The notes beneath the pieces were generated by a model. The model was given only the letters and a program-made list of their open reading frames with translations. It was not told the DNA's origin and searched no databases. Made by a program: the position numbers and the translations under genes. From NCBI RefSeq assembly GCF_910592395.1, contig NC_088314.1, positions 18,077,998-18,141,997 of the forward strand: a stretch of 64,000 bases of DNA, in the 5' to 3' direction. This document shows positions 1 through 52,733 of this stretch, one piece after another. The stretch is from Lineus longissimus (taxonomy: Eukaryota > Nemertea > Pilidiophora > Heteronemertea > Lineidae). Numbering within the stretch: the first letter of the stretch is position 1; every line of letters begins with the position of its first letter.

Positions 1-1496
1 TATCTTTAAACGTAGCCGGTCAAACTCGATGAGATGCAAAACCTTGGTGGTCAAGATGTCCTAAATTTGACCATCGGTGGGAAAACCCGGGTGGAAACAC
101 TGTAAAAGAGTATATAGCTGCATGCAGTTCATCTAAGTGCATCATTAGCGCACACAAAAGTAACCAAGCACACGGCTCTCGATGTTGACAGTGTGCAAAC
201 TACCTTTGAACACAAAATGGATACCACGAAGCGGCACAGTGCCGCGATTGTGCGACGAGCAAATTGTGGTCTTCCATTTGAATGCGGGTTGTAAACATAC
301 ATTAGGGAGTTTTTGCAAAAAATCCCTGAAACGTCAGCGCAAACGCCACTCCCACATGGCATGTTCGAGCTCCTGATCACGATGTCGAACAATGATGGGA
401 CATGCGATCGTGTAGGCGTTTCGAGAGGCTTTGCTGAAACTCAGTCCGTTATCTGTATTGAAGACTTATACGTTTTCAAGTCTATTTTTGGAATTTGGCA
501 CTCCCTTTTTTGGTGATTTCGAACAGAAAATGCAAGATTTTATGTTTCATTTGTAACTTCAAAGTGCAAAGGACGTAAAGGGGTACATCGTTCGTAATTA
601 CTGGTAGTCCAGTTAAATAGAAAATCCACTAATACACAATGCCGTAGCGCAGTTATTATGAAATTGTTGAAACTTTGTATTTATAGTATTTGGCTATCTG
701 TCTACAGAAAAGCAATGCTGAAATTTATTTATAGTATGTATTTACGCAATTTAAAATTCAATTCAAAATTCAAAATGTTTAACGAACGGCGTGGGCCAGA
801 ATCTTACTTACTTTGCCAGAATAAGACAAAGCATGACCAGGAATGAGTCGTTTGAAGCGACACACAGGGTGCCATAGCTTGCCAACCCGTTTTGGCTCTT
901 TTTGCATGCAGTGCCTGCCATTTTTTCCTGAAATGGAGTATGGAAACCAAATATTGTTGACAGATTTATCCATCCTAAAAACTGACAACACGACATCATA
1001 TTCGCAACTCAAACATTGCTTCAGCAAAATACTTGACCCTGCAGAAGGTGTGATGACGAATATCTGTCCAGTGAATACTTTGAGGCTGCTACGCCGTTCA
1101 ATCATGGGTTTTTGTTGCACGCACGCCCGTCCATTAGTCATGTGAAAGGTTAGCCTTTCAAACCGATACCATGGAGGATACTGAAGTGCCAAATCGCAAT
1201 TAACTTGTCCAAAGAACTTCATGTAGCTGTTGGTACATGTTAGTCCATAGTTTGTTGGAGTCTCAGAGAGTTCACACGGTGTTGGTAAACTGTCTGAATT
1301 TTATTGACCAGTAGAGGAATTTATCGCAGGATTCCAAATTTCTACAAACCATTGAAATTTTTTGCTGATATCCGAACATTCAGAGCTACATTGTACCTTT
1401 GAATCGAAAATGATGAGAAGGACATCCAGTTAGCCTATGGTACTAGCCGTGAGAATCAAAGGAACATTCGCGATAGAACGCAGCAAACTAGGCACA
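1..1496. other. 5' flank of channel gene A, no gene recognised
   Basis: Short ORFs occur on both strands but none has a recognisable domain. The stretch around 1199-1290 (AACTTGTCCAAAG followed by TTGTTGGAGT and a TTCAC block) is matched at about 6962-7050 in front of gene B. The tandem duplication therefore carried part of the 5' flank, which may include the promoter or 5'UTR. No TATA box stands out. Confidence 0.5.
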
Positions 1497-4400: not shown

Positions 4401-5616
4401 ATCGTACGAGACATAGTATATATATGTTGCAGCCGGTGATATGATCAGCACGCTGGCAAACAGATCGGTGCAGATTCTTCCAAACTGTCTTTGGCGTTCT
4501 GTTCTTATATACCAAGCGACTCTTGTACCAGCGACATTTGCAAGCCATACTTTGAACAGTCCAAGACAAAGGCAGACCACCGACCTCTCCAACGACTACT
4601 GTCTCTTTTAGGTCGAGAAGCTTGCGGCACCCCACGGCACTTGCGGGTCCAAGCCATTGAAGTACTTCGCCAACTACTCCACATCAGCCTGCCTCGTTGA
4701 GTGCAATACGGATTACATCGCTGAACATTGTGGATGCAAACTTGACTACCAGCCCGGTAAGATTTCGAGCCCAGGATTTACAGACCGCACATCCCGGGGC
4801 TTCCATAATGATTGCAAAGAGATCGGAGAGCCTTCATTTCAATGCATATCCGAAGACATCATTCATTAGCAAATAACAGCCACAACTTTTTTTCAAAAAG
4901 ATGAAAAATGGGCATTTAAACCTCACTGATCAATCTGTAGTGATTTTCGAATATTTTCGTATTTTCCAAAAATAATGCTTATCACGATGCTTAATATCAT
5001 TATCAATTAAGGTCATCAAAAACTGAAATTAGTGCTTTATCATCAATCAAGGCCACTAGAAAGTAAATGCCAACAGTGCCCTACAAAGAATCAAGGTCAT
5101 CAAAAGTAAATGCCAGACGTGCTTAATTTACCATCAGTATATATTGTTTCCTTCCTCCCAGGTAACTTCTCGTTCTGCAATCCCAAGGACATGTACGACT
5201 GTGCCTTCGACCGGTCCAAGCTGTTTGTCAGCGACCCAAACCAGACCTGTACGGACGCGTGCCCAGACGAGTGCAAGTCGACCACCTACGAAACCGACTG
5301 GTCGGCCATAGATATCAAGCCGGACTACTACGAAGGGGTTATCTATAAAGGCAACTTGTCCCACACTTACAACAAGAATGTCACTCCAGAGAGCATGGCC
5401 AAGAACCTTGCCGTCGTCTATATCTTCTACCGCGATATGAACGTGGAGGAGACGGTCCAGCAACCTGCTTACTCCTCCTTCGATATGTTCTGCGACGTTG
5501 GGGGTACCTTCGGCCTCGTTCTCGGCGCCAGTGTACTCACTTTCATCGACATCGTGGACTTCCTTGTCTACTATTTCGTCACTCGGAAAATGACGCAGAA
5601 GGTTGCAGTAAATTAA
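1497..5616 (+). CDS. DEG/ENaC-family sodium channel subunit, gene A (six exons)
   Basis: Exons 1497-2141, 2874-2958, 3444-3559, 4210-4308, 4612-4756 and 5162-5616 join in phase (0,1,0,0,1) to a protein of about 514 residues, the usual family length. Seen: a cytosolic N-terminus with a PPDY motif at residues 20-23; TM1 near 105-130; the post-TM1 signature FPTLTFCNFN; the exon-2 DMGWCFQFN block; the cysteine-rich thumb (HGTCGS, YSTSAC, CGCKLDYQPG); and TM2 with the GAS selectivity filter in LVLGASVL. Family members form trimeric amiloride-sensitive cation channels in the plasma membrane. The start ATG at 1497 was chosen because alignment with gene B begins there; an upstream in-frame ATG at 1437 is unmatched. 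The His of the usual HG gating motif is Ala (EIAG), and Cys precedes DVGG at the degenerin position. The ligand or stimulus cannot be read from the sequence. Confidence 0.93.
3841..3966. mobile_element. Foldback MITE in intron 3 of gene A
   Basis: Two imperfect inverted arms, TTGATACC...TGTCTCACCAAAACCGC and GCGGTTTTGGTGAGACAA...GGTATTAA, lie about 35 bases apart. Related but degraded sequence is visible near 6350-6450 and 36310-36420. The large palindrome at 29083-29244 shares the GGTATTAA ends and a CCAATGACC/GACCGC style core. It is a short non-autonomous element with no coding capacity. Confidence 0.65.
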
Positions 5617-7171: not shown

Positions 7172-10100
7172 ATGGTCAAAGACAGGATAGTGAAGACTAG
7201 AAGGGGTGCACGGGACGCCTGGGACGGTCCGCCTGATTATAACGAATCGTGCGGCAGAACCATCGGGGAGGCTCCATCGTGGAAGACCGCCGTGTCTGCC
7301 GTGACCGCGGTGAACGCCTTTAAGGACCCGTTCCCCGTGGAAAAGGTGGAGAAGGCTCTAACTGACCCGCTTCAATACGAAGCCAAGGGTCCCACTTTCT
7401 CTCAACAATTCTGCTCACGGGTCGAGATGGCTGGTCTCCGTAAGGTATCTGATCCTGAATACGGCATACTTCGTCGTCTGCTCTGGCTCATTTTTATCTT
7501 AGGATGCCTTGGATTCGGAATATTCCAGTGTACCATCCAGATCACGCAGTTCTTCAACAGGCCAATCAGGGTCAAGGTAAACATAACACGTGTCAAGGAG
7601 ATGGAGTTCCCGACCTTGACCTTCTGCAATTTCAACTTCTGGAAGGAAGGGCCATCAACACGTGATGGAATAACTGAATTAGTTTGGATGATTGTTTATC
7701 AGGTTAAAGGTGCCGACTTGACGCCTTACGAGCCCTTCAATAACTTCAACTGGACGAGAGAGCATCTAAATTTTGGTCACCAGAAGAAAGACTCCATTGT
7801 ATTGGTAAGTCAATCTTGCTGGTCAAGAAGCTGACATGACGTGACTAGGTGGCAGCACCAGTTCTTTCAGCGGACATTGCTTTTGTTCTACCTTTCCTGT
7901 TAGAAGTGCTGCAATCTGGAAGGTTGCTCCTGACCGATGTGTAAAATTAGGGCCTTTGCCATATTTTGGAACCAGCCGAGCTACGGAACTAACACTGTGT
8001 GGGGAGGGAATACCAAGTGAGTGAGTAGGCCTTGGCCTCATCTCACCAATCCCTGTCTCCGTCTGGTAGAGAAAGTGCCCTTGATGGTAGGCGCCTTTAT
8101 CTTTCAGTGTTCCTTTCAACACAAGACATGCACGGAAGCAAACTTCAGGCACCTCACCACCGACATGGGCTGGTGTTTCCAGTTTAACTACGGTAAGGGG
8201 CGTTCTAGCCTAAAACTACAACGACAACAACGAGTGACGCGCCCCCGTGCGGAGGTTGGGAATGTCCAAGTCTTTCAAACCGGTCACCGAATTATTTTAG
8301 AGGCTACTTTAGTTCATTCTCAGTGAGTGATACAAAATTGGACCGTCGATTTTGTTAGCAACATCGGAACTACACGTTCTTTCTCCTTAAAAGATTTGAA
8401 AGAGTGCAATAGGCGAATTCTAAACCCAAAACCTTTGTGATGTCGGACGAAAAAATATCTCAATCCTTTCCAGAGAATCCGTTGCTGAAAGTTGAGAATG
8501 CGGGCACCGACTTCGCTCTCCAACTTCATCTGTATGTCGAGACGGAAGAATACGTGGCGAGTGCCAATGGTCCTGGAATGGGCTTCAAGGTAGGAAATGA
8601 AAAACAATCATGCTCTTGTGGGCCGATTCACGTCGGAATAGTCTGAGAGTTCGACCGGATGCGCCCTTTGAAGTGCGAGGCTAATTGCCGGTTCCCGGCC
8701 AGCATCAGTTTAGTTTGACTGCGACAGCGAGAGTGAGGACAGGATCCCTGTTTAGTGACTTGCAGTGGCAGCGCGAATGTTGCATGATGTAGCCTACCTC
8801 ACTCGGAGATCTCTCCATAATTCGTCATGTTAATACCAAGTACATTACCTCATTGGCAGCATAAGGCGTGTACCGAGGGCGCTGCAATATTTCGTCTTGT
8901 AGAATGTCCTACAACACCTTTAACAAGCTTTATCCCCCGTGTCACTGCTTCATCTCCGTCCAGCCTGCGCGGGTGACTTGTCATCTCCCAGCCTCGCTGT
9001 GTTCCCACTGTTTTGTTCTCGGTATCGGTGGCGGCGGGCCAGTTAACAGTAGGTGCTGGTGCATTAGGTATTGTTGGTGTGTGCATACCAGATAAGTGGT
9101 GAGCGCGTGCTTTTTGTCCATTCTTTCTTGACTTTCATTTGGGCAAGCATCAAGAATGCATTTTCCCCCCTATGATCCTCGAGCCACGTATGCGGTGGCT
9201 AATCGTCAGTCGGCGCGTACTCGCAACACGGGTCGGAGTGAAGGTCAAGGCCTCTCTTATGGTTTCTCTCTCCCAGGTGTTGCCTCATGATCTGTACGAC
9301 ATCCCCCTGATGAGACCCTCAGGAATAGCGGTCAGTCCTGGCATGATGACATTCATTGGACTCAAGAAGAAGAAGGTGAGTTGACCTCTCCAAACACACA
9401 GCTTTGGCCTCATTGGCCGATCATGCAGCCTGGACCCAGTTCTGGGTTAAATGTTTCATTACATTAGACAGCTGGAGAGACCATAACTTTTCAATACGAG
9501 GAAACAAAGAAAGACATGTCAATCTATTGTTCAGCGTTCCCAAACACTGAGGGGAAACACCCAGAAACGAACACTCAAAAACGTTACAACTGCCGACATC
9601 ATGCCCCACTTGTCAAACAGCAGTGTGGTCTTCGAATAAGATGTGATGTTATTACTGATATTATTTATTCTGCATATATTTATCAACAAATTAACATCAT
9701 CTTTCAACATTTCGCAGTCCGCGCCGAAACTGACTGATTCTTCTTGCTCCTCTTAGGTCGAAAAGCTTGCGGCACCCCACGGAACTTGCGGATCCAAGCA
9801 ATTGAAGTACTTCGCCAACTACTCTACGTCTGCTTGTTTCGTTGAGTGCAACACCGACTACCTGGCCGAATATTGTGGATGCAAATTGGACTACCAGCCT
9901 GGTAAGAGTTTGAGGACAGGGTTCCTCTTTGAATCGTGGATATCCATGACAACATTACTTGAGAGGTTAAATAGTGCTTTACGATCAGTCAAAAACATGA
10001 ATGTACCATCAGTCAAGGTCAAAAAGTGACTGCCAACAGTGCATTACTATCAGTCAAAGTCGTCAACAGTGCTTTACCATCAGTCAAGGTCATCTGAAAG

Positions 10101-10644
10101 TGACTGCCAACACTGCTTTACTATCAGTCAAGGTCAGCTGAAATTAAATGCCAAATAAATGTAAATGTGTTTTCTCTCTTTTTTTCAAGGAAACTTCTCG
10201 TTCTGCAGTCCCAAGGACATGTACGACTGTGCCTTCGACCGGGGCAAGCTGTTTGTCACCGATCCAAACCAGACCTGTACGGACGCGTGCCCAGACGAGT
10301 GTAAGTCGACCACCTACGAAACCGACTGGTCGGCCATAGAGATCAAGCCGGACTACTACGAAGGGGTTTTCGAGTCGAACAACTTGTCCAACACGTACAA
10401 CAAGGATGTCACTCCAGAAAAGCTGGCCAAGAACCTTGCCGTCGTCTATATCTTCTACCGCGATATGAACGTGGAGGAGACGGTCCAGCATGCTGCTTAC
10501 TCCTCTTTCGATATGTTCTGCGATGTGGGGGGTACATTCGGCCTCGTTCTCGGCGCCAGTGTACTCACTTTCATCGACATCATCGACTTCCTCGTCTACT
10601 ATTTCGTCACTCGGAAAATGACGCAGAAGGTTGCAGCAAATTAA
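7172..10644 (+). CDS. DEG/ENaC-family sodium channel subunit, gene B (tandem duplicate of A)
   Basis: Exons 7172-7804, 8108-8192, 8474-8589, 9277-9375, 9757-9901 and 10190-10644 join to about 510 residues. Exons 2-6 have exactly the same lengths as in gene A (85, 116, 99, 145, 455) and very similar sequence. Exon 1 is 12 bases shorter and diverges most after TM1. Seen: PPDY at residues 20-23, TM1 near 100-126, FPTLTFCNFN, DMGWCFQFN, HGTCGS, CGCKLDYQPG, and LVLGASVL in TM2. As in gene A, the HG motif is AG and the residue before DVGG is Cys. The ATG at 7172 aligns with that of gene A. A and B are a recent head-to-tail duplication about 1.5 kb apart. They could be co-expressed or form heteromers, but this is inference. 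Confidence 0.93.
9985..10145 (+). repeat. Short tandem repeats in intron 5 of gene B
   Basis: Degenerate units of roughly 30-60 bases built on ATCAGTCAAGGTCA and GTGACTGCCAACAGTGC. A related run (ATCAAGGTCATCAAAA, AAGTAAATGCCA) sits at the same place in intron 5 of gene A, about 5000-5115. The repeat therefore predates the A/B duplication and has changed copy number since. Confidence 0.7.
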
Positions 10645-19205: not shown

Positions 19206-19208
19206 GTA

Positions 19209-37191: not shown

Positions 37192-40100
37192 TCATGCAGG
37201 TTTCACCCCTCCCGATAGGTGGCGCGTAAAAAAGTAATAGACGAAAAAATCGCATATTTCCAACCCAGTGATAATGCTCGCCCCTAGTGCCAGACCGAAC
37301 GACCCCCCAATGTCACATATCATATCAATCTCGGTATAAGCAACATTCTGAACGGTTTCCTCTACATTCATACTTGTATAGTATATGAAAACCAGAGCTA
37401 GATTTTTTCTTAAATAAGTTATATTTTTATCTATGTAGAAGTCTGCGCTCTTTTCTTCAAAGAACCAATCTGCTATTGGCACGGTTGAGACTTCCATCTC
37501 GAAGGTGGTGGTCTCGCATTGGTCCGGGCACCTCTCCCGAATGCACGTTTCGTTTGTATCCGTCACGAAGTCGACTTGCGCTTTCAGGCCACACTTATAC
37601 ATTTCTTCAGGGGTGCAGTCAGGATAAGACCCTGGGAAAATAAAGTGTTTATATGACGAATGGTTTGATAAGTGAAGAAAGCTATTTCTTGCGTGGCCTA
37701 CCTGATTTTACAACCGTGTGGCAGATGAATAAGCGGAAGAGAACACGTATGGAGAAGGGGGTTGAATTGAACTCCTAATGGGCTTTGTCAGTGCCGTAAG
37801 GTTTCTTATTTACTCCGTGGTCTGCCTTTAAATAGTGATTGATAGATGAATAGGCATAAGGGAACGCGTAGCAAAATGGTCCACCATACGTACCCAATTG
37901 GTAAGCATCTTTGCAGCCGCATTTCTGACCCATGTACTCCGTCAGGCACTCTAGTTGACACGCTGAGGTCGAATAATGGGTAAATTCCTTGAGTTTTCTG
38001 CTTCCGCACGTGCCGTGGGGTGGGCCGATCTTTTTAATCTGAAAAATACCAACAAATCGGTCTTTTGTATCAATAAATATAACATATTCTGGAACAAAAT
38101 AAAGTCTATCAGGAATCAATAGGGCCTGAGGTCAATGTCACTTGGGGCACAGGTCAAATTTAAGAATTCTCCCAGGCCCTTTCATAATCATTGAAATTCC
38201 AAGTTTGACTTTGGGATTACTGACGGACTGAGCACCAGGCAAATGTCAAAGTACTGGGGTCAAAGGTCAAACTTCGGTATTCTCCTGGGATCTTTAGGGC
38301 TGACTTTGCAACCCTCAAGTCCGCATGACGGATATACCAGTGTAAGTCTACCCCCCCCCCACACACACACACACAAACCTGCTTACCCTTTTTTGTTTGA
38401 TTCCAATAAAGGTCTGCATCCCTGGCCCCACAGCTATACCTGCCGATTTCATCAAAGGAATGTCATTGCGATCATGTGCAAGAATCTGTAATCATGAAAC
38501 TGTCTGATGAAACACAAATTGAAATTAAACATTTTATCAAGAACTAAACATAAAACTACATACAGCGCAGATAGGCTATGTGGCAACATAGAACACCATC
38601 ATGTACAGACAGGGGAAGTGAAACACCGGACACGAAAAAGTACTCACGATGTCATTCTACCAATAGCATTCCGCGAAGATGACATCACTGCAGCTGCTGA
38701 CCTCTATTTCCCCATCGCTGAATTACAGGCAATGTCGGACAAACATGCGGTTTCGTAATGGATTAGGGCTTTCTAACTAGGGCAGTTAGATTCAATCTGG
38801 CACATGTCCGAGTGTTGGAAATACATGTACTACATAATTGTTCTGAATATTTCTCTCTCTGACTCTATGGTATCATTCATGCTAAAAACAATGCAGGGTC
38901 AAAGATAATTGACTTTGAAATAAGCTCAAATGCGAAGAAATAAGTGTCGATGTCCGACTGTCACGTGACTAAAACGTCATCAATATCTTATGCAAATGAC
39001 CTTGTGAGCTATAAATAGTAACTTCGCGGGATGCTATTAAAAATGTGCGTTTTCGGAAGAATTGTTTTACAAATGTGTATGGTTGTTTTATTACATTTTA
39101 TATGTACTGGCACTTGTCCCGCTTAATGTTACTTGTTCGGGCAGTGTCGTTAACTGATTTAGGCTTGAAAACGTGACATGACATGGCATCCTAAGAGGGT
39201 GAAAGTGACATCGTGAATCGTATGCAGTCAGTTCTTTGCAAATGACTTGTTCTTTCTTTTTAAAATGACAGCGCGAACTACATGTATATGTAAACCCAGC
39301 CTCAGTTCCCGTTAACCATGTTTACACGGTACCAGACCAGACCAAACCAGATGTGGGACATTCGTGCGCGTTTAAACACAAAAGAAATCCGGATCAGCCT
39401 GGATCAGTTTGGTCACAGCGTGTAAACGGGCCTAAATTAGAAGTTTGTTTATGATACAGACACAGAACTATAAGATACAGAACTAAAACAGGTTGGTATT
39501 GTTACCTTGAACCCTTCGCCAAAGCCATGCCGACTGCCAATATACTGATCGAGTTCTGTATCCAGGTGGAGAAGAAGTCCGTAATCAGTCCCCGCGTTGT
39601 TCACAGACAGAGATGGCGTCGTCGTGTCTGTGCGGGTAAAGAGAAATTGTACTTGTAGTAAAAGTAGCAATGATCTACAAGGGCCATAAATGGTCTGTAC
39701 TCATTGGTAGCAATGATCTCTAAGGTACCTATGTCAATCTACAATGTACCCCGGTATATGAAGTCACCGATTCCGCCGACAAAATCTCTCGAAACCCCCG
39801 CCGATTCATTCCACGGCATTGCTAGCTTTGGGAGCTAGATCTAGTTGTGCGACATGTGGGCGAATGTATAGCATTGTACGCATATAAACAAGTGTGCGAT
39901 ATATCGCTAAATCATACTGATTGTCAACTGATCTTACTCAAACTGTGAATTCATCGTTGAAATCAATATATAAAGGACATGCGCAGATACGGTGTGCTTT
40001 TTGTGCAACCGATTTTTAGAAATGACACTGGTTATGGTAAGAGTGCGGTCAAGATCGGGGGTCAGGATCCCATCCTGAGTATGACGAAGGTCGTAAAGAA

Positions 40101-40256
40101 ACACGCCTTGCTGACTGGTGAATAACTGACCTACTTTACCTACATTTGGCAACTAAGAGTAGGATACTTACTGCTATTGAACTGGAAGCACCATCCCATA
40201 TCTGTTATGGTTTCCTCGAAGTCGTCATAATCACACGGCTTTTGTTTCCAGTCGCA
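37192..40256 (-). CDS. DEG/ENaC locus C, constant exons 2-6
   Basis: On the minus strand: exon 2 40256-40172 (85 b), exon 3 39627-39506 (122 b), exon 4 38485-38387 (99 b), exon 5 38038-37894 (145 b), exon 6 37631-37192 with stop TGA. Lengths and phases match genes A and B apart from two extra codons in exon 3 and a shorter exon 6. Seen: DMGWCFQFN, AGTDYGLLLHL, IPLMKSAGIAV, PPHGTCGSRK, YSTSACQLEC, CGCKDAYQLG, ERCPDQCETTTF, MNVEETVQ, CDIGGSFGLALGASII (TM2 with GAS filter). These exons occur once in the window, although five first exons lie upstream on the same strand. The product depends on which first exon is spliced to the acceptor at 40257. With the nearest one, the protein is about 484 residues. 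Confidence 0.92.
38351..38376. repeat. C-run plus (AC)n next to the exon-4 donor
   Basis: Ten C then CA repeats on the plus strand, giving a (GT)n-G tract on the transcribed strand starting about 10 bases inside the intron after the exon-4 donor at 38386. GU-rich tracts at this position can bind CELF/TDP-43-type splicing factors; that is inference. Confidence 0.7.
38662..39039 (+). mobile_element. ~380-bp element, copy 1 (intron of locus C)
   Basis: The ends AATAGCATTCCGCGAAG and the complement of CTTCGCGGGATGCTATT are inverted repeats. The body is a close reverse-complement match to 46169-46533. It lies between constant exons 3 and 4. There is no ORF of note; it is a non-autonomous DNA transposon. 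Confidence 0.8.
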
Positions 40257-40479
40257 CTAAAATAAAAATTAAGAACCGGATTCAAACCAAACGAGAGCCT
40301 GCTCTGACTTAAAGCTGAACTGTTAACAATAGATAGATGCCGCCATCTTGATTTTGTTTCGCCGTCAGGGGCACCTCACTTGTGTAGTTTGATGAGTGTT
40401 AGATTTAGCAATGTGTCCACTCAGCGGAGTAAGCAACAGCGCATCAGCCAAGCAACAATTTTGGTGGAAACCACATAAT

Positions 40480-40880
40480 CTACAGCGGTAGATGCCGGCG
40501 CGTCGGTCTTGCAACAAGCTGCACTGAAAACAGGAGGGAACGATTGGAACACGCAGAGATTCTGGCGTCCCTGGCGCACATCAGAAGTTGCATGAAAAAG
40601 ATCAAGGGAAGGATTCCAGGATCAGGGTATTCCGAGGGCACACAACAGCAAATTGCACTGAAAAAGAGAGAATGATTGCAGCACACCGGTTTTAGAACGC
40701 CGCTAGAGCGCACAATGCAGGTCGCCTATGGCAAAGAGGATAGAATTGCAGTACACCGTAAGTTACATCATAAATGAGGTAATGATATGAGCACATTTGG
40801 ATGAATACGTCTCTGTCGCACACAAGTTGCACTAAAAAGAGGGGGAGGATTGCCTTGCCAAAACTACCCCGCCGTCGAAC
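40480..40880 (-). repeat. Degenerate ~75-bp tandem repeats in intron 1 of locus C
   Basis: Units containing GTTGCACTGAAAAAGAG, GATTGCAGCACACCGG and GCGCACA recur about five times with heavy divergence between the nearest first exon and constant exon 2. Non-coding; the open frame that runs from the first exon into this stretch is read-through past the donor. Confidence 0.6.
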
Positions 40881-40901
40881 AAGGCCTACACGCTTACTTA
40901 C

Positions 40902-41465
40902 AGCTAGCAGAGAATCATGGAGTCTATGCCCTAACAGCTTGTAATTCTCCCACCAACTCCAGCCGTTAGCGATGATCTGCTTATTAAGTGCGGGTAAAGC
41001 CAAGAGGCTTTTCTTCTCCAGCAAAATCGCTTTCACGTAATCAGTCATGTATACTTTGTCCGTCTTTCTCTTTGCGAATATATTGAAGTTGCACACTGTA
41101 ATGGCGGGAAATTTCACGTGGTCATATCTTGAAATATTAACCAAAACTGTAATTGGCCGCTGGTTGTATTTTGCAATCTGGGAACACATCTGATAAAGTC
41201 CAAATGCTGTCATGCCTAAAATGAATACAAGCCAAATCATCCGTCTAAACAGGCCGTACTCCCCATCGATAAGTTTATTAAGTCCGCCGAGGTTGACTCT
41301 TGTGCAGAAGGAGGTATAAAACTTGCACCATCTATCTGTTTTCACGACTGGCCCATTGAACGCTTGAATCCGCGTTGTTTTGACTGGTTCGGCAATTTTC
41401 TTCTCATTCATGCTGAGAGTTGACCCACCATCGAAAAGGGTTAACCTTAATTTGGATGTTGACAT
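40902..41465 (-). CDS. Locus C variable first exon a
   Basis: 188 codons from the ATG at 41465 to a phase-0 donor (GCT|GTAAGT, exon end 40902). The ATG was chosen because MSTSKLRL aligns with the start of exon e (MSTNKLKL); an in-frame ATG at 41588 is upstream. Seen: CTRVNLGGLNKLID before TM1 (about residues 70-95), then RPITVLVNISR and FPAITVCNFNIF, then a divergent stretch ending HRLHDSLLA. It is the first exon nearest the constant exons, about 650 bases upstream of exon 2. It encodes the cytosolic N-terminus, TM1 and the first part of the extracellular palm and finger. Confidence 0.92.
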
Positions 41466-41581
41466 GATATCTATTGACATGATACCATTCACCGGTATAA
41501 TATGGATAGGAAATCCACCACTGACAACGACCAAAATACGGCACTTTCCAACTTGCGAATCAGAAAAGGCTGTTTTCCGTA

Positions 41582-41633
41582 CAGTCACATGACATGAAGA
41601 ATAACAGTGATTGGTTAATCCTCCTCACGTGAC
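41582..41633 (-). promoter_or_regulatory. Promoter module of first exon a (E-box, CCAAT, E-box)
   Basis: On the plus strand: CAGTCACATGAC at 41582, CAGTGATTGGTTAAT at 41605, CACGTGACC at 41626. Read on the transcribed strand this is a GGTCACGTG box, an ATTAACCAATCACTG box and a GTCATGTGAC box. It lies 117-168 bases upstream of the ATG. Element order and spacing are repeated at first exons b and c. Confidence 0.7.
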
Positions 41634-41639
41634 CTTTCG

Positions 41640-43302
41640 CGTGCCGCAGTAGATGCAATCCATGGTGAGAATTATCCAGGTCAGTCACGGAATGAGTTTG
41701 TCATAATGAACACACCGGATCCCTAAGAGTGGTAGATAAAATTATCCCGACGTTGCCTCACAAAATTGGGACTCGAGCTTAAATTACTCGGCAAAATTAG
41801 TATCGTTCTCACTGAACGACTCGGGCCAAATCAAGATATCGTGGTTTCGCTTTTCTTCTAGAAAGATTTTCGATCCACTAGTACTACAGTATGGCCAAGA
41901 AAACGTTTCCCTTGCACAATATAATTCTATTGTGTATACATTGTGCGAGTGAAAAGTTTTCTGGTCCACCCTGTAGTAGTTGGGGTCTCTGACGGGAACC
42001 GTATATAGTCCGTGTTTTTGCCTGTACACCATGTAAATGCAAATCACTGCATCGAAATTGAATATAGGTGTAAATGTAAAATCGGGGAGGCTGTGGCTTG
42101 GGCCACCGTCGCGTTCCGTGTCTGTGCTGGATTTGATCAGTGACTGAGCGTCATTAAAATTATTTATCAGCAATGATGTTGTCTCTCTTCACACATTTCC
42201 AATGGAAAATTACCTCGGAAACATCGTCAAAAGTAATCAGAATGGATATGAAGCCATATAAAAGCATCATGATATGATGGTTCAATGTCTATGTTGAACA
42301 AAGCGCGTCTCCACGGTGATTATCGCATAGACAAAGTGTACCCAGTTACTGATCAAATACACCATACGCCGTAAGAGATTGTAAACATGGCATCAATCAA
42401 AGTTGATTTTTGAGGCTGGACATGAACTCTGGTATTTCGATGCTGGCATTGTATGCGATTTTATGGCTCGGTTCAATTTGGTTACCTATTTGCATGACTA
42501 GATCATGTTCAGCGGTAAATATATTCGCTGAACCAGATCCCAATCCCTGATTTGGTCGTTGGGAACGAGTAACCAGATCGATCGCGCCAGAACATCCCCA
42601 ATCTCCAAGCCTCGCCAGCGATAACGTTTGCTTAGTAGTACTAGCACCGTTTACCTAACGTACTTTTGCTACGGAGCAAATGTTAGCTATTCTCTCATTT
42701 GGAGATTGGACACCCCATTGATTGAGGCGGGCCTCTGCTGAAGATGGTTCGAATCGGCACCTATATACGATTTTCTGAGCTAGGAATATATACCTAAATT
42801 CTAACCGTTGCAGGTCAACTTGATGACATGTACATGTATATCGCTGTAGCCTCAAAGTGTCTTCAATTCAGCATGAAACCGGCTGTATCGTTCGAAATTT
42901 TACGTGCAGGGGCGACGCCAGGGGGAGGTTGGAGGGGCCGGGACAGGGGCAAATGTCCCCTGGGGGGGGGGGGGGGGGGGGGGGTCGTGAACTCTTATGG
43001 CCGTACCATAACGAAACGTCACTTGCACGTCAGCTGTACTTCCGTTTTGACAATCTTGACACTAGAGGCGCTGATTTCGTTCCTTTAATTTCAGCACTGG
43101 GGCGAGTTTGCCATTTTGATCGCCAACATTTTTGCATCTGTGACGTAACACGAACCTTTTTTGTTTTTCTTTTATGACTCACAAATACTATTTTTCGCAA
43201 AAGCATTTTCAACTTTGATAAAATATATAATATCGGAAATTTTGATTCACGTCGAAGGCGATGGACTGTACATTTCTGTTTTAGTTGAGCTTATAGGTAG
43301 GC
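41640..43302. other. Between first exons a and b
   Basis: No exon recognised. A 129-codon minus-strand ORF at 41784-42173 lacks family motifs. A G-run of more than 20 bases lies at about 42961-42984. No copy of constant exons 2-6 was found here. Confidence 0.5.
42961..42984 (+). repeat. Poly-G tract
   Basis: An almost pure run of G preceded by GGGGCAAATGTCCCCTGG. It is able in principle to form a G-quadruplex. Its length is likely to be assembly-sensitive. Confidence 0.8.
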
Positions 43303-43314
43303 CTACCGACTTAC

Positions 43315-43827
43315 CTCAAATAGCGAATCGTTTAGTCTATGCGCATTATCTCGGTGAAAGGCTTCCATATCCCACCCAGAAAGGTTGTATCCAAATGCAG
43401 TTAAATTCACGTTTTGCTTATAGAGTACTATCGACTTCACGAACTCTGTGATGTTTTTCCAGTCAAGATTTTCCTTTCGATAGATGTTGAAATTACACAC
43501 TGTAATTGCGGGAAATTCCAGAATGTCTTCTTTAGAAATGTTTACAAAAACTGTAATCGGTCGGCTGTTGAATTTTGCAATCTGTGTACACATCTGATAA
43601 AGTCCGAACGCCAGCATGCTCAAGATGAAGAAGAGCCAAACAGCCCGTCTGAAACTGCCGTACTCAGCGTCAATAAGTTTTATAACCCCGCCGAGGTTCA
43701 CTCGTGTGCAAAACGACGTGAAAAACTTACTCTGTGTACCTGCTTTTACTTTTGGTTCGTTGCATCCCTGAACCGAGGGGATCTTTGTCACAGGTTCAGA
43801 CATTTCTATTTCAACAATGCTGAGCAT
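43315..43827 (-). CDS. Locus C variable first exon b
   Basis: 171 codons if started at the ATG at 43827, or 163 from the ATG at 43803 (MSEPVTK, which aligns better with exon a's AEPVKTT); ends GAG|GTAAGT in phase 0. Seen: CTRVNLGGVIKLID, TM1 (VWLFFILSMLAFGLYQM), RPITVFVNISK, FPAITVCNFNIY, and a divergent segment ending HRLNDSLFE. Intact throughout. The divergent segment (KENLDWKNITEF...) differs almost completely from exon a, while the TM1 region is highly conserved. Confidence 0.9.
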
Positions 43828-44091
43828 TGATTTCCAATAGAAAATTGTAAAACACGAATGTTGGTATGATATGTCGTCATGAGTCCCTAAGGTCTGATTC
43901 CACTTCAACGATTTAGGCAGTTTTGCCGATTTCGCAGGCTTGGTGGTCCGGTACCATCGCCGAGCAAAAACCTACACCAAATTTAACCCAACACCTATAA
44001 CACCTGAGCAATTCCCCGCTTTCACTGCTGGAATCTAAAAGCAAAAAAAAACAATCAGAATTTGACGCCTTCAGCTCGTATGCAAATCGAG

Positions 44092-44142
44092 CAGTCACAT
44101 GACCACATAAGATACAGTGATTGGTTAATGCACATCACGTGA
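44092..44142 (-). promoter_or_regulatory. Promoter module of first exon b
   Basis: CAGTCACATGAC at 44092, CAGTGATTGGTTAAT at 44115 and CACGTGAGC at 44136. The 23- and 21-base offsets are identical to those at exon a, and the central 15 bases are identical. An octamer-like ATGCAAAT lies just to its left at about 44080. It is 265-315 bases upstream of the ATG, so a longer 5'UTR or a small upstream intron is possible. Confidence 0.7.
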
Positions 44143-45230
44143 GCCCTCGACATATTGCCGAGTGAGAATGTCAACAATATGGGGTTTACTTGAGTGGCCA
44201 TTACCCCCTCTACGGGCATGGAGTCCATTATCTGTTCACACTCTTTGTGTGCGAACAGAAGAGTTGGACGCTCGTAAACAGTAATGGACATATCAGTTTT
44301 AAAACCTCATCAACGCACAATAATAGGTCTATCCTATTAAAACATACATGTGTACAAATTATACCGGTAGGCTTTTTCGAAAGTAAATGTCACTGTTCTT
44401 CTTGGCCGCTGTGCAAAAACTACTGGGCTGAATCTTTTGTTTTCTTCAATCTAATTTTGGGACCAAACACAATTTCAAGTTAGAGATTTGCAAATCCGGT
44501 AAAAAAACGATTTCTTCATTGGTCTTGGTTTGGAGCCCTTTGACCATTTGTTGACGATTTAGGTTATCTGGACAGGGCCTATTTTGCGCATAGATATTGT
44601 TGAATGAAAGATATGCCTGAAGATTTCATCAAAGTTCATTCAGAAATAAGCACTACAGAGGAGAAAATGCCGAAGTCAATGCACTACGTTAATGTACACG
44701 AATCACAAAAAAAATTTCATAACAATGGTTACTGAAATGTGAAAATCAGCCTAATAGTTTTCGCACAGCGGCTCAAAAAGACAGTGGCATTTACTTCTGA
44801 AAAAGGCAACTTTCAATATGGACCCAGTACGCACGTGCTTAGGCTGGAAGAAGTATGCCCATCCTCGTGTTTGCAAAATGACTTAGCGGATGAAATATTT
44901 GGATTCTGCTCAAACTAAATTGTAAACCAATCCTTACTCTTTTGATGGATGAATACATTTTTTGATGCTGTGTCGACCAACTAATTTTGTCAATAATGTT
45001 ACATTCATGGTAATGGTGATAGCCCCACTATTTTTTAGCACTATGCTTGAGGGACCTCACTTGTAAATATTTATATGAATTGAGGACTAAAAGTTGACAT
45101 TGTAGTATGCACAGAGAGGAAGAATGCCAAGTTGCCCTAACGCGCTAAACTACCACCTCGCGAGCACTATTTTTTTCGAACTTTTAGTTGAGCGGTGAAA
45201 GACCGGAAAACGGTAAAAAAACCTGCAATG

Positions 45231-45231
<1 letters not shown>

Positions 45232-45265
<34 letters not shown>

Positions 45266-45266
45266 G
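45232..45266 (+). repeat. (TGA)n microsatellite
   Basis: About eleven uninterrupted TGA units. They create poly-Ser and poly-Ile shadow frames on the minus strand. Confidence 0.9.
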
Positions 45267-46020
45267 TTTGACAATATTTGGCAGTGTATGGTACGGGTGT
45301 TGTGCATTTTTCAAATTCAAGCACACTCCCTCTTTGCCAGTATTTGCTGCCATGCTGTGATGTTACTGTACAATACACATTGCGATTACATAGTGTAATC
45401 AGACAGAAAAATGGCCGCGACCACAGATTCAAGATTGGACCGCCTCATCACACTAATTTTTCTGCATGGAGTATGATCATTTCGGTCAAGTGGTTAGAGT
45501 GACTCAACGACTATCTTGACGCAAGGACCCAACGCGCCGCGTAGCGGCAAAATAGCGAAGCTGGTGAAACATTTATACGGGTCACCGTGATCTCATTATG
45601 GACTTATAGCGCGATTATGGGGTTGGAACTATTTTGCTGTGTATTGTCACAAGGAAAGAAAAGCACGCGACTAAACGCCGACCTATTTATGTAAAGTGAT
45701 AATTAGAAGGTATGTAGTTCAGGAAATGTTAATAAATAATCATTCTATATCGTCTTTTGCGAGCATTTTTAATTGTAAAAAATATATGCCTACGTCACAG
45801 AGTCTCTGCAATGGTAATTTTTATCACAGTAGTCTCGCGCAGCCAGAAGTTCTTTACTTTTCTTTGTACGAGACGTTTTCCGGCACGATGTATGTGGGCA
45901 GATGCAGCACTGCGCAAGATTACCTCGGGGCAGGGGCTAATAATAGATTATGCTAATGAGCATACCTCCTCATTGAGTTTTCCCAGAATGGTCCATATCG
46001 CACGAAGCTCGGGACGGCAT

Positions 46021-46117
46021 GGTTGTCGGTTGACTGTGCTTTAAGAGAGACCGACTGTGCTTTAAGAGAGACTGACACCATGCCTAGTCTCTCTTAAAGC
46101 ACAGTCAACCGACACCC
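46021..46117. repeat. Hairpin with duplicated arm
   Basis: GACTGTGCTTTAAGAGAGAC occurs twice on the left and once as its complement on the right, flanked by TGTCGGTTG/CAACCGACA. Two alternative stems of about 20-30 bp could form. Probably a small foldback element. Confidence 0.8.
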
Positions 46118-46168
46118 CTATACCCGCTCACACTAAGAAACCACAAACGCCCACCCCTTCCTGCTACC

Positions 46169-46533
46169 TTAATAGCATTCCGCGAAGTTACTATTTATAG
46201 CTCACAAGGTCATTTGCTGATGACGTTTTTGTCACGTGACAGTCGGACATCGACACTTATTTCTACGCATTTGAGCTTATTTCAAAGTCAATTATCTTTG
46301 ACCCTGCATTGTTTGTAGCATGAATGATACCATAGAGTCAGAGAGAGAAATATTCAGAACAATTATGTAGTATTTCCAACACTCGGACATGTGCCAGATT
46401 GAATCTAAATGCCCTAGTTAGAAAGCCTGAATCCATTACAAAGCCGCATGTTTGTCCGACATTGCCTGTAATTCAGCGATGGGGAAATAGAGGGCAGCAG
46501 CTGCAGTGACGTCATCTTCGCGGAATGCTATTG
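46169..46533 (-). mobile_element. ~380-bp element, copy 2 (inverted relative to copy 1)
   Basis: Near-complete reverse complement of 38662-39039, including the AATAGCATTCCGCGAAG ends. It lies between first exons b and c. Primary transcripts from first exons c, d and e would contain both inverted copies, whereas those from a and b would contain only copy 1. Confidence 0.8.
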
Positions 46534-46978
46534 GCTACTTCTGGATTGCATTACAGATAGTGGCCCGGACCTTGCCAACAGTGGTTACAAACTGGCCACC
46601 TGGCGGGAGCCTATACGTAGGGACAACGTAGGCTATATTACAGAGGTTGGTCGCCGATTTTCAATCATGGAATATTTCATTGAATTAAATCCGCTAGTCC
46701 ATACTAACAATCCAATTTGTGTAGGCCTAATTTTATTTGACTGAAATAGACAACTCATATGAAAAACCAACTATTAGAACAAAAGTTGCGTCGTTAAAAC
46801 CCTAAAACTTATTCCAAGCCGAAGATCCTGCCATTACCGAATTTTGGTAAAGGATTACAAAAATAAAATCGTTTAGAATTAGGTCCCCGGCAGTGGCCGA
46901 CTCAGCACCACCGCGCGGGGCCTAATGGTATTAGGCTATCAAGTGGTCGGTCAAACGTATTGCAATGACAATACTTAC

Positions 46979-47494
46979 CAACAGAACTGAATCATTGAGT
47001 CTAGACGCGAAAATACTGTATTGATACGTCCAATTCCAGTTGCTGAAGTCGAACCCCGATGATTTCGTAGACACGTTTTGTTTATAGTATACAATGTTTT
47101 GTATATATTTAGTCGCATTCACTCGATCCGTCTTTTTCCTTTCGAATATATTGAAATTACATACCGTAATGGCGGGGAATTCGATGCTCTCTTCAAATGT
47201 AACCTTCACCAGAGAGTTAATTGGCCGGCTGTTTAATTTTTCAACCTGTTTACCCATCTGATAAATTCCTAATACCGTCATGAATAAGATGAATATCAGC
47301 CAAATTATCCGTCTAAACAGGCCGTACTCCCCATCGATAAGTTTATTAAGTCCGCCGAGGTTGACCCTGGTGCAGAAGGCGGTGCCAAATTTCCTCCAAG
47401 TTCCGCCTGCTTTGACGATTTGGCCATCGAACGCCTTCACCGGAGTCTCTGTGACCTCATCAGCCATCATTTTATTCATGTTGCGTATTGACAA
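46979..47494 (-). CDS. Locus C variable first exon c
   Basis: 172 codons from the ATG at 47494 (or 167 from the ATG at 47479) to TTG|GTAAGT in phase 0. Seen: a short cytosolic start (ADEVTETPVKAFDG), CTRVNLGGLNKLIDGEYGLFRR identical or nearly so to exon a, TM1, RPINSLVKVT, FPAITVCNFNIF, then a divergent segment ending SRLNDSVLL. Unbroken frame. It is most similar to exon a around TM1, suggesting recent duplication or gene conversion of that block. Confidence 0.92.
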
Positions 47495-47584
47495 GGCCCG
47501 CCTTCGGAAAAAATCAAATTTTTACAATTTTTTCACACAAAATGTCTTCACCACTCTTGAAAACTCCAGTCGACAAGTCTTTTG

Positions 47585-47638
47585 CAGAATCATGCGCATT
47601 TTCGGGCGCAGTGATCGGTTTATCCTCTACACCTGACC
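47585..47638 (-). promoter_or_regulatory. Promoter module of first exon c (diverged)
   Basis: CATG at 47591, CAGTGATCGGTTTAT at 47609 and CACCTGACC at 47630. The 30 bases from CAGTGAT match exon a's module at about 25 positions, and the 21-base offset to the right-hand E-box is the same. It lies 91-144 bases upstream of the ATG. Confidence 0.6.
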
Positions 47639-49259
47639 GTTATTTTCGCCGGTAGTATTCCATCGACATATCGACGAATTTTTTAAGGCATGCTAGTATC
47701 TCACGTAGACATTTATATTTTTTTTAATGGAGATCGTTTGAATATAGGGATAAACGGAACTCAGCGAGCATGTATCCAACTGCGTCAATACCTCGAAAGT
47801 GAAAAATGTCGGTTCGTCACTAAAAAAACCTTCGACAAAATTTCCACTTCTCTCCTCAACACAAACACACTTAAATACAAAGGTTTTTTGGGCTTAAGGG
47901 TTTTTCAGTCAACATAAATATGTACCCTGAAAAGTTTTTTTGTGTTGGCTGAAAAACCCTCCAAAGGTTTTTCAAAAGCTCAAAAACCTTTGATTTTTAA
48001 GAGAATTGGCAACTGAGTAACAAATGAACGCAAACGCATCGACGGTAAACATGGCATAAACAAAATTGAGAAAAATCGGCCTTGCGGTGACTTTTTCTTC
48101 AGCGGCAACAAACGTCCTGATCTGCTTTCTGAATAATCAAGAAAGTACCGCTTATCACTGGTTGCCTTTGGAATTGATGGAGCCCTATAAACACGAACGC
48201 CCGGCGTAAACTTGAAATAATGAACGCCTGATATTCAGTCCCGATGAGTAATATGTAGCAAAAAAATAAATAAATAAAAGGCTCTGGTCTGCAACGATCC
48301 ATTAGCCGATCACGAGAGGAAATAAAATTATTTCCTCCTGTCGATTATGACACCAAGAACATAAATTATGTAGCTGACCAATCTTTAAAGCTGACAGTCT
48401 ACGTCAGTAGTATTAAAAGGGTTACGCCATTCGTCCAGAAAAATAGAAATGCAGTTATACACAATGCCGAAGTGCAATTATCAGTGCAACTTTGCTGAAA
48501 TTGATTGTGAAGAGTACTTGTATATCTGTGTACAAAACGGCAATGTTGAAATTTTCAATGCGTATTTACGCAGTCGGAAATTTTCTAATGTAATTACATT
48601 ATTTTTTAATTTTGAGGGAACGGCTTAATAGACCGTACATAGTTAGAGGTAATATAATTAACAATTAAGTCCATAAACTTGATCGATTTTATGAACGTGT
48701 TTGATAATTGCGATTAAAAATTAGAAATGTATCCATTGTCACTTCTCATTATATTTGACATAACATTTCATATTGTAACTTGTGTTGTAGTGGTACTAGG
48801 TGTAAAATAAAACATGTTCGACTTTTGATTTTTAATTTAGTTATAATGTTCTTCAAGCATGAATTACATCACAACTGGAGAAAAATACACAGCATGCAGG
48901 TTTGTCCTATATGGAAAGCAAACAAATTGTAAATTATGCATAAACTCGGCTGATTTGTGAGTAAACTTTAAAGGAAATAGGCGGACATAATTGAACCTTA
49001 AAAATGTAATGCATATGATGTCTAAGTGTCATACAGTATATAAATACCAGATGGACACAAGTTTTTTTGGGAAATATAAACACATTCTTAAATTACTGTT
49101 TTTTTATTCATATTATCACTTCCACGTGGATACTTTGACCTCACATGGCAAAGTACTAGTATATAGAATTAAGAAACCTAAATCCAGTTTTTGGCGGGTA
49201 CCGAAAAAGATCGTATACCAAAAAAGAAGTTGGCGTCACGATATTCACTACATTCTTAC
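47639..49259. other. Between first exons c and d
   Basis: No exon recognised. A MITE-like element (AAAACCTTTGATTTTTAAGAG style ends) occupies about 47815-48010, and the rest is A+T-rich. No copy of constant exons was found. Confidence 0.5.
47815..48010. mobile_element. MITE with AAACC/GGTTT inverted words
   Basis: AACCTTCGACAAAATT..., a central TTGGGCTTAAGGGTTTTTCAG and the complement CTGAAAAACCC, then TTTTTCAAAAGCTCAAAAACC before TTTTTAAGAG. It shares the TTTGAGCTTTTGAAAAA and CTCTTAAAA words with 36453-36672. Boundaries are approximate. Confidence 0.5.
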
Positions 49260-49739
49260 CTTCAAAACCGACTCTTTTCGTCTGTGAGCAACCTCTCGGA
49301 AATATTGATACCAATCCCAGGAGCCATTATATCTACCATGGAACAGTACAGCTTTTGTTTTCGCAGTCTCCCCTCTCGCTTCCGTTTTCCCCTTCGAAAA
49401 CAAGTTGAAGTTACACGCAGTGATTGCTGGAAATTCCACGATTTCTTCCCGGGAAATGTTCACCAGAACGCTGATGGGTCGCCCATTGAATTTGATGACT
49501 TGAGTCGCCGCATGGTAAAGTCCGAACACCAGCATAACCAAGATAAATACCAGCCAAACAGCCCGTCTGAACAAGCCGTATTCCCTGTCGATGAGTTTGT
49601 TAAGTCCGTCAAGAGTGACTCTTGAACAAAATGAAGTGAAGATACTGTTCCATATGTTTTGCTCCTTCTTTATTGCCTGAACCGAGGTATTCTCAACTGC
49701 CTTTACCGTATTTGGGACTTCTAGATCCGTTTTAAACAT
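49260..49739 (-). CDS. Locus C variable first exon d
   Basis: 160 codons from the ATG at 49739 to AAG|GTAAGA in phase 0; the shortest of the five. Seen: CSRVTLDGLNKLIDREYGLFRR, TM1 (VWLVFILVMLVFGLYH), RPISVLVNISR, FPAITACNFNLF, then a short divergent segment containing SWDWYQYF and ending HRRKESVLK. The glycine preceding the conserved gating glycine is Asp here. Unbroken frame. No clear CCAAT/E-box module was found upstream. Confidence 0.9.
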
Positions 49740-51722
49740 TTTTTGCCTTATCAGATGTAGCGCATGCTATATCGTCCGATTAGGCTTGGAATTTATTAAA
49801 AAGAATGTTCCTGTGGGCAGGAATACAAAAAACTAAAACTTTTAACGGTGTGTCACCAACAGTTTTTATAACATGCACCAAGAGTCTTCAAAGAGTTATG
49901 GGCCTAATATTTGCATCAATACATACCTGTGCTTGTACTATAGTACTAAGTGCCAAATCTGACGCTAGTTAGGCTCGGTAGGCGGTATAGTTTGCTATTT
50001 TTATCAATCGAGTCCCACTTACCAACAAATTAAATCAACGCCTAACAACCAACAAATTGATTATGACAGAAGCTCACGGAGTGTCAATGATGCATCAAAT
50101 CAATTGTTCGCCAATTTTGTACACTGCCATCGATATTGACGCATTATACCTCTCACGCAAGTGGCTTAGTCATGATGGAAATGGTTGGTGACCAAGTTAA
50201 TTTTTTCGCATCAATAAGATATTCCGAAGAGCAAATGAAAAACCCTTATTTCGAGGTCAGATTACAGAAAATTGCCTTTGGGCGGCCTGTTCGATTCGGA
50301 GTGAAACCAGTTCAGATGCAAGCCAAATAAAAACTGCGAGTAAGATAAATAGGTAAATATTCGCCAGATCCATCTGCTGATGAAAATAGACAAAGTGGAT
50401 TATTATATTGTATTAGGGTCTGTTATTACATGTATTTCATTTGTCTGCGACTGACTATAACAGGGATAGCTGCTTGCTGTTAGCAACGTAATATAAAGCC
50501 GAATGCATTCTCCGACGCGCGATCACCGGCATCCATAAGTTCTGTACTGTTGATTTCCATCGGCAGGAACACAACCAATGAAAATGCTCGAGTTTGGATA
50601 TCACTGCATCAGCGGTGATGAACTTCCTAGAATCGTATGCTAGCGACTCTCTGATTGGGCGCATTTCGTTTTCGTTTCTTCAGACAAGGGAAATGTCTCA
50701 GGGGTTTGTGTGCAGGGCCGGAAAAGTAAGGCAGGTGCAGCGAGCATTGACCCCTGATTTTCTCCGGATGCACACTATCTGTAACGTAGACCGACCTGCC
50801 CCATCCCACTTACAAGAGGTCAGCTCATTTCGTCAGCCTCGGCGGACTAATCCGTGATATTCTTCGGAGTGAATGTACCGTATTTGACCTCGAAGACATT
50901 CACTCGCCCGATTTGTGCCAATTTCAATCTGTGGTACGACAAGGCCTCGCCCTTCGTTGTCATCTATTCGCTTCCACGTACCCATTGTGGGTGCGTGATG
51001 CCCAGTAGGGCCGTCTTCACGGGACTTAAACCGATCTAAATCGATCCGGATCGATGTCCGCGAAAACGGTGACCCAGCGTAACTTGACGCCCCTTCTCCA
51101 TACACGCACCCTTTCACTTGCTCATCTCGCAACAGTTTATGTCTGCGGAAACACATTTCCAAAAATCGATCAGGCCTCAAAGCACGCAGACGAATTCAAT
51201 ACGATCAATTAAAATAATCAAGCTTCACCATTACCATACAAAAGATTAGTTCATTTTGAGGGGGGTAAGGCCCGCATTTATTATTTTTATCCGAGTTCAT
51301 CCCACCAATGATTGGAGGGTCTTGTTTATATTGTGTTTCAGAGGTAAACCAATAGGCCATACATTCGTACCGTGACAGGGCCGGCTGGCCTGGCTGGAAG
51401 TCAAGGACCCTACCCACACCCGGAGCCAGGAGTAAAGGCACTTCCAACACTCGTCACAAACAAACACCACCTCAATCATCACCGTCACAAACACCGTAAC
51501 TGTGTTTCAGACGGTGCGAATAAGACCGGAAACAATGGCCCCATGCACCGTGGCGGTTCGAATAGCCAGTTCCAAACCAATAAATATCTCTACCCACCGT
51601 AAACACGAACGGCGTAACTTGTGCCGCGCTTGTCCACGTGCTATACAAGTTCTAGATTTTAAAAAAGTATCCATCTTTCAAGGTAACATTATTCATATAA
51701 GGCTTGAAATAATTGAACTTAC
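49740..51722. other. Between first exons d and e
   Basis: No exon recognised and no copy of constant exons 2-6. Contains one copy of a 28-bp element at 50823-50850 that recurs upstream of first exon e. Confidence 0.5.
50823..50850. promoter_or_regulatory. 28-bp shared element, copy upstream of first exon d
   Basis: GCTCATTTCGTCAGCCTCGG followed by CGGACTAA, identical over 28 bases to 52734-52761. It is about 1.1 kb upstream of the ATG of first exon d. It could be a regulatory element or the trace of a dispersed repeat. Confidence 0.35.
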
Positions 51723-52298
51723 CGAAAGGAGTGAATCGTGCAAACGAGGAGCGAATTTCTGATACTGCTCCGTCCAATTCCAATAGGTGAAGTCGTAGTT
51801 AAGAGCTTTCGCCAAAGCCCCAATATTATCCCCCTTACCAGTTATCAGTATCTTTTTGGTGAAATCCGAAGCTCCAATTCCAAAAGCATCAAGTTTTTCC
51901 TTCGAGAAAAAGTTGAAGTTACAAACAGTAAGTGTTGGGAACGTCACTTCGTTATACCTTGAGATGTTCACAAGAACCCGAATAGGCCTTTGCCGGAATT
52001 TTATTATTTGTAGTGTGGTGTTGTAAAGGCCAAGCGCGACCAAACTGAGGATACAGGCCAGCCAAAATACCCGCCGAGCAATACCATACTCTTTATCAAT
52101 GAGTTTCTCCAGGCCACCAAATTGGATTCTTGTGCAGAAAGATGTGATGAACGCGGCACAACTTGGCGTCCTTGCGGCAGAGTCGTTAAAAGCAACCACA
52201 GGTGTGCGGTGAATCGGTGAACCCTTCTTGTCGACATCCGCAAGACCCGGAGTCGAATCTTCTTTAATTGATTCTAGCTTCAGCTTGTTTGTTGACAT
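51723..52298 (-). CDS. Locus C variable first exon e (most distal)
   Basis: 192 codons from the ATG at 52298 to TCG|GTAAGT in phase 0. Seen: MSTNKLKL start shared with exon a, a longer cytosolic region (DSTPGLADVDKKG), CTRIQFGGLEKLIDKEYG, TM1 (VFWLACILSLVALGLY), RPIRVLVNISRY, FPTLTVCNFNFF, then the longest divergent segment, containing YWNWTEQY and ending PRLHDSLLS. It is the most divergent of the five and about 11.5 kb upstream of constant exon 2. Confidence 0.92.
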
Positions 52299-52675: not shown

Positions 52676-52733
52676 AAACCGTTAGATACCTGTCCGAAGA
52701 GTCGACAAGCCCATCCATCTACAAAAGAAATTT

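Follow-up and report, generated by a model that had tools for sequence, protein, structure and literature searches.

Five tandem first exons and one constant exon set in an ASIC-like channel locus of the nemertean Lineus longissimus

In the DEG/ENaC family of ion channels, two is, to our knowledge, the highest number of alternatives available for the first exon of a gene. In vertebrate ASIC1 and ASIC2, the N terminus, the first transmembrane segment (TM1) and roughly the opening third of the extracellular domain come from alternative 5' exons, and the remainder of the protein is shared (PMC11335189, PMC4967927, PMC6882745). The variants rASIC1a and rASIC1b differ over residues 1-186 and have the thumb in common (PMC11335189); the differences between ASIC2a and ASIC2b lie in the N terminus, in TM1 and in one third of the extracellular loop, and they affect trafficking and the proton response (PMC4967927); and the first exon specific to ASIC1b and a 4.5-kb promoter fragment have served to manipulate that variant (PMC6882745). 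Here we describe a channel locus on the minus strand of a 64,000-nt stretch of the genome of the bootlace worm Lineus longissimus (Nemertea), hereafter the window, in which five such exons instead of two lie in front of a single set of downstream exons. We denote the five first exons E1a to E1e, E1a being the most distal, the constant set exons 2-6, and two neighbouring channel genes A and B.

Tandem variable first exons joined to one constant set are also the design of UGT1 and the clustered protocadherins (PMC1885805, PMC3325998), although those arrays are far larger and belong to other protein families; strong gene conversion among neighbours is found in the protocadherins and is suspected here for E1c and E1e. 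The organisation of Ugt1, Gcnt2 and Ugt2a is described as vertebrate-specific (PMC1885805). A further parallel is Drosophila Gr39a, whose large alternative exons have their own start and donor and, as in Gr28b and Gr23a, went through tandem duplication, divergence and gene conversion, a history resembling the one suggested below; its exon-A copies number up to six or seven in some species (PMC2204066). Unlike the locus described here, Gr39a encodes an unrelated protein family, and its variable exon carries six transmembrane segments instead of one. The nemertean locus is a larger variant of a known design, the array of five being what is new, and we found no account of it in the open-access literature on alternative first exons in degenerins, ENaC or ASIC.

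We consider it very probable that this locus is a multiple-variable-first-exon DEG/ENaC gene, able to provide up to five subunits from one constant set. Genes of this kind carry homologous first exons in tandem, every one with a start and donor of its own, and one common constant set downstream; both are found here. All five first exons are open and align with the Pfam ASC domain (PF00858) beginning at profile position 1; their donors are all GTAAG and in phase 0, in agreement with the initial annotation of five intact minus-strand exons (Table 1). The start codons given there needed revision in two cases: E1c was begun at 47494, which is a TTG, the first ATG being at 47479, where the NCBI model also starts; and E1e, begun at 41465, is borne out as an exon, with the NCBI start five codons earlier, at 41480.

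To count exon copies, the window was cut into 3621 six-frame fragments and searched using hmmsearch --max with one profile per exon. The exon 1 profile gave seven matches of at least 229 bits (E1a-e, A and B) and no other at E<=1. The profiles of exons 2-6 were built from the copies in A, B and this locus; each recovered those three at 73 bits or more, and its next-best match reached at most 12.3 bits. Relaxed tblastn agrees that exons 2-6 occur once at this locus, as had been claimed, and neither search revealed hidden copies of them between E1a and E1e. The single exon 2 acceptor is in phase 0 as described, the first base of the exon being 40256; when we looked for the unannotated exon 2 copies that might have served the distal first exons, none appeared in the window at profile sensitivity. 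In the whole genome (391,118,348 bases in 30 contigs), E1a as query recovered these seven sites and, in addition, two weak matches on contig C13, but no further close first exons; exon 6 found three close copies and one weak match, also on C13. These window and genome copy counts indicate that there is no concealed exon 2 near the distal first exons and that there are no displaced constant sets.

Genes A and B have the same exon split with one first exon each, again as initially annotated: their donors are GTAAGT in phase 0, their NCBI models match, and their boundary between exons 1 and 2 is that of the five-exon locus.

Joined in silico to exons 2-6, each of the five first exons stays open to one common stop. 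The products of E1a to E1e measure 488, 456, 463, 467 and 489 amino acids (E1e taken from the NCBI start), and the first introns would measure 11,466, 9,003, 6,722, 3,058 and 645 nt, respectively. Three of these products are already in the database: the predicted NCBI isoforms X1, X2 and X3 are identical letter for letter to E1e, E1d and E1c joined to the constant exons, which supports the reading as alternative first exons that the initial annotation had put forward.

Over the ten pairs among E1a-e, amino-acid identity is 40-55%, and codons differ in 25-36% of second positions vs 42-68% of third positions. The NG86 method gives 0.35-0.63 nonsynonymous substitutions per site (dN); the synonymous value (dS) is 0.61 for c/e, 1.28 for d/e, 1.36 for b/d and 1.73 for c/d, and is saturated in the other six pairs. 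This codon-position pattern across the pairs argues that all five first exons have been kept under coding constraint. In a simulation with no constraint and no indels (2000 runs per exon, scored for an intact start codon and frame), both were kept in 13-44 of the 2000 runs at 0.2 substitutions per site, and in 1-7 at 0.4. Divergence is uneven along the exon. Mean pairwise identity is as low as 26% for the cytosolic tail and 31% for the finger part, whose length varies as well, and stands at 63% for the pre-TM1 segment plus TM1 and at 67% for the strands after TM1.

Table 1. Positions of the first exons, the constant exons and associated features in the window
Feature	Position	Strand	Remarks
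E1a, most distal first exon, 192 aa	51723..52298	-	donor TCG/GTAAGT; no NCBI product found
E1b, first exon, 160 aa	49260..49739	-	donor AAG/GTAAGA; no NCBI product found
E1c, first exon, 167 aa, ATG 47479	46979..47479	-	donor TTG/GTAAGT; NCBI isoform X3
E1d, first exon, 171 aa	43315..43827	-	donor GAG/GTAAGT; NCBI isoform X2
E1e, first exon	40902..41480 (NCBI start)	-	donor GCT/GTAAGT; NCBI isoform X1
Constant exon 2, single acceptor for all five E1	40172..40256	-	phase 0 in, phase 1 out
Constant exon 3	39506..39627	-	
Constant exon 4	38387..38485	-	
Constant exon 5	37894..38038	-	
Constant exon 6: TM2, GAS motif, stop	37192..37631	-	begins at 37631
58-bp block upstream of E1e, candidate proximal promoter element	41582..41639	-	shared with E1d
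58-bp block upstream of E1d, same block	44092..44149	-	44/58 identical to E1e copy
33-bp weak partial copy of the block upstream of E1c	47609..47641	-	borderline in control
59-bp E1c stretch, gene-conversion candidate	47307..47365	-	identical to E1e 41239-41297
Gene A, related channel, single exon 1	1437..5616	+	NCBI P0010, exon-by-exon match
Gene B, related channel, single exon 1	7172..10644	+	NCBI P0009, exon-by-exon match

When X1 is aligned to human ASIC1a, the last residue of the first exon corresponds to S171 and the first constant residue to C172. This corrects one part of the initial annotation, which had the five products share the same finger: the variable exon ends at S171/C172, and the finger, as labelled in ASIC1 structures, lies inside it. 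The thumb and the pore (TM2 with the GAS motif) are shared as stated there, together with the rest of the palm. A cysteine equivalent to C93 of ASIC1 is present in all seven first exons, and the equivalents of C172, C179 and C194 are encoded in constant exon 2; in ASIC1, C93 and C194 form a disulfide, and its equivalent would link each variable exon to the shared body. The analogy with ASIC1a/1b that had been drawn for this locus holds for the logic and fails for the exon boundary, which lies about 15 codons earlier here than in rASIC1a (S171/C172 vs residue 186, PMC11335189). Splits related by descent would be expected to have the same boundary, and these two do not; this distance from the vertebrate ASIC1 boundary suggests that the five-exon split probably arose independently of it.

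We propose that transcription of the locus would start at one of five sites, each near its own first exon, with promoter choice deciding which is used. The donor of the chosen exon would join the only coding acceptor, at 40256, and any first exon copies further downstream would be skipped because first exons lack a clear 3' splice site. Skipping is favoured by the sequence ahead of the start codons: each is preceded by an in-frame stop at a distance of 15-147 nt, and between the nearest such stop and the start we found no pyrimidine-rich AG for E1a, E1b and E1d. The resulting subunits would differ in the cytosolic tail, TM1, the wrist strand and the finger, and would be alike in the remainder of the palm, in the thumb and in TM2, GAS motif included. 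DEG/ENaC channels are trimers, and different subunits of this locus may mix in them.

A separate promoter for each variable exon is plausible. An unbiased repeat search over positions 37192-53600 returned two families of direct repeats of at least 30 nt besides the first exons themselves. The first family is the 58-bp block shared by E1d and E1e. It precedes its exon by 117-174 nt in the case of E1e and by 265-322 nt in that of E1d, and both copies carry TCACGTGA, ACCAATCA and TCATGTGAC at equal spacing; the best other place in the window matches at 32/58. The partial copy upstream of E1c lies at a similar distance and scores 36/58. In a control of 254 pairs of unrelated 800-bp pieces the median was 31, and four pairs reached 36. 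These figures are suggestive, short of proof; the d/e block would fit promoters that were copied along with the exons. As a signature of the locus, the arrangement TCACGTGA-N9-ACCAATCA was rejected, since the genome holds at least 109 occurrences of it, against 0 for a reversed control; of ten such loci, seven lie in a repeat with a period of about 132 bp, with flanks unlike the d/e block. This dispersed repeat carries TCACGTGACTA(T/C)GATTGACCAATCA on many contigs.

The second family is an 82-bp block shared by E1a and E1b (E 8e-9, two copies in the window). We considered it as a second promoter class and rejected it; it has matches of 83-87% at four further sites in the genome, and for this reason it is treated as a dispersed repeat. 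The repeat search over the same interval gave no recognised common promoter element for E1a and E1b. A bacterial promoter scan was uninformative at this locus and was given no weight, and poly(A)-like hexamers are dispersed across the locus and decide nothing.

Several observations weigh against a gene with five working first exons. One of the 254 unrelated pairs matched or beat the d/e block (51 vs 44), and the block shared by E1a and E1b is a dispersed repeat instead of a promoter signature. A pyrimidine-rich AG is present upstream of E1c and another upstream of E1e, where use as a cassette exon, though improbable, is conceivable. The NCBI isoforms X1-X3 are predicted models, not cDNAs; in the NCBI pipeline, alternative variants usually rest on RNA-seq. 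Finally, a full-length search (7 matches among 7462 candidates) found no database protein with E1a or E1b, E1a alone found none among 234 candidates in the protein database, where E1b alone was not searched, and a profile search of that database had no E1a or E1b record among the matches listed.

It is conceivable, though we think it unlikely, that E1c, E1d and E1e are the only first exons in use, E1a and E1b being relics of the array that fell silent recently or are expressed at a very low level. NCBI products exist for c, d and e alone, and the finger part of E1b is the shortest of the five (48 amino acids after NFN vs 57-63 in the other four); both exons nevertheless retain a start codon, a donor, the conserved cysteine, TM1 and an open frame, an intact coding anatomy that speaks for their use. 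Their divergence keeps the codon pattern described above, and unconstrained frames seldom survive such divergence, although a recent silencing of either exon would slip past constraint tests.

Very improbable is a second alternative, by which E1a-e are what is left of five complete genes, their own exons 2-6 having been lost or else merged during assembly. Whole-gene duplication does occur here, A and B being whole tandem copies, and purge_dups was applied to the published 391-Mb assembly of L. longissimus, which was built with hifiasm from PacBio HiFi, 10X and Hi-C data (PMC8593623). Against this stand the HiFi reads themselves (PMC8593623), the profile search, which detected nothing of exons 2-6 in the stretches separating the first exons, the lack of an extra exon 6 elsewhere, and the three NCBI models that already use the shared exons. 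That the downstream copies are internal cassette exons of longer transcripts, as the phase 0 at all five 3' ends and the pyrimidine-rich AG upstream of c and e would allow, is hardly credible given the in-frame stops before the starts, the two TM1 segments that such a product would hold and the NCBI models, which begin inside their own first exons.

The products have the features of DEG/ENaC channels, namely the Pfam ASC domain, two transmembrane segments, extracellular cysteines and a G-x-S selectivity motif. Compared with the PDB, P0006 scores 180.7 bits with ASIC1, 179.6 with ASIC2, 148 with ASIC5, 104.6 with ENaC beta and 93.7 with FaNaC, so that its closest solved relatives are ASICs, and at the level of sequence the label ASIC-like is safe. 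Residues H73, D78, K211, E411 and E416 (rat numbering) are fairly conserved in ASICs (PMC9949801). In the nemertean proteins the equivalent of E416 alone is kept: H73 is replaced by P and D78 by V in all seven first exons, K211 by N and E411 by T. We assumed here a two-residue offset between rat and human numbering, which fits the glutamates observed. As four of these five proton-gating residues are absent, strict membership among the proton-gated ASICs appears doubtful. In the His-Gly motif of DEG/ENaC channels, the histidine is replaced by G (E1a, E1c, E1d, E1e), D (E1b) or A (genes A and B). A predicted structure of poor quality (mean pLDDT, the predicted local distance difference test, 54.8; pTM, the predicted template modelling score, 0.47; seven sequences), whose best Foldseek matches were ASIC1 chains, was left out of the mapping. 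A published survey included L. longissimus transcriptomes but names Notospermus geniculatus as the sole nemertean with putative ASICs (PMC9949801). In our two full-length protein searches for orthologous loci, the second of which covered at most 8000 candidates, the matches listed held, besides this worm, just two distant proteins.

Since A and B are split at the same boundary, the intron between exons 1 and 2 is older than the array, and in the explanation we favour it was quite probably exon 1 on its own that was duplicated in tandem to give the array. Exchange between members of the array is suggested by E1c and E1e: a run of 73 nt is common to both with no more than two mismatches, and it includes an identical stretch of 59 nt; none of 1000 codon shuffles reached such a run, while the next-best runs, in a/b and d/e, were each reached by 18 of 1000. 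Third positions of c and e agree in 21 of 24 codons inside the run vs 76 of 142 outside. Gene conversion would be the simplest reading of this pattern. First-exon trees of all seven copies disagree between protein and codons on the inner order, and with support of 60-69 for E1b with A and B and of 65-78 inside c/d/e we dropped a tree-based order of duplication; a conversion between c and e would disturb such a tree, which is a further reason not to read an order from it.

If five subunits are indeed made from one constant set, DEG/ENaC channels would have reached alternative first exons more than once, with five instead of two, and the cut in the channel would fall at a near-identical structural seam, immediately ahead of the first cysteine pair where palm and finger meet. 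An architecture like that of the protocadherins and UGT1 would then be placed in a nemertean ion channel, and five natural N-terminal modules on one body would offer a testbed for the roles of TM1 and finger in gating, trafficking and ligand choice. More tentatively, the locus might act as a five-way modular sensor, in which the promoter picks a finger and TM1 module for a common body and thereby tunes ligand or pH sensing, in line with the strong divergence of the finger next to the better kept TM1 and first palm strands, a system perhaps invented independently of the vertebrate ASICs and with most proton-gating residues gone. In that event co-expressed subunits would give up to 35 different trimers (three from five, order ignored).

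Within the locus, an inverted repeat pair of about 375 bp (38660-39040 and 46169-46534) has arms that are 96-98% complementary, with ends that read AATAGCATTCCGCGAAG; it resembles two copies of a miniature inverted-repeat transposable element in opposite orientation, the first located in intron 3 and the second between E1c and E1d. Elsewhere in the window we found an RVT_1 reverse transcriptase in two overlapping frames (19162-21068, plus strand), a broken element of the non-LTR (long terminal repeat) type, a THAP domain open reading frame (27040-27378, minus strand) and an EF-hand exon of another gene (59421-59654, minus strand). Large tandem arrays lie at 29751-30902 (45 bp), 55011-56179 (44 bp) and 57209-58244 (131 bp); in the first of them, both strands stay open for more than 400 codons.

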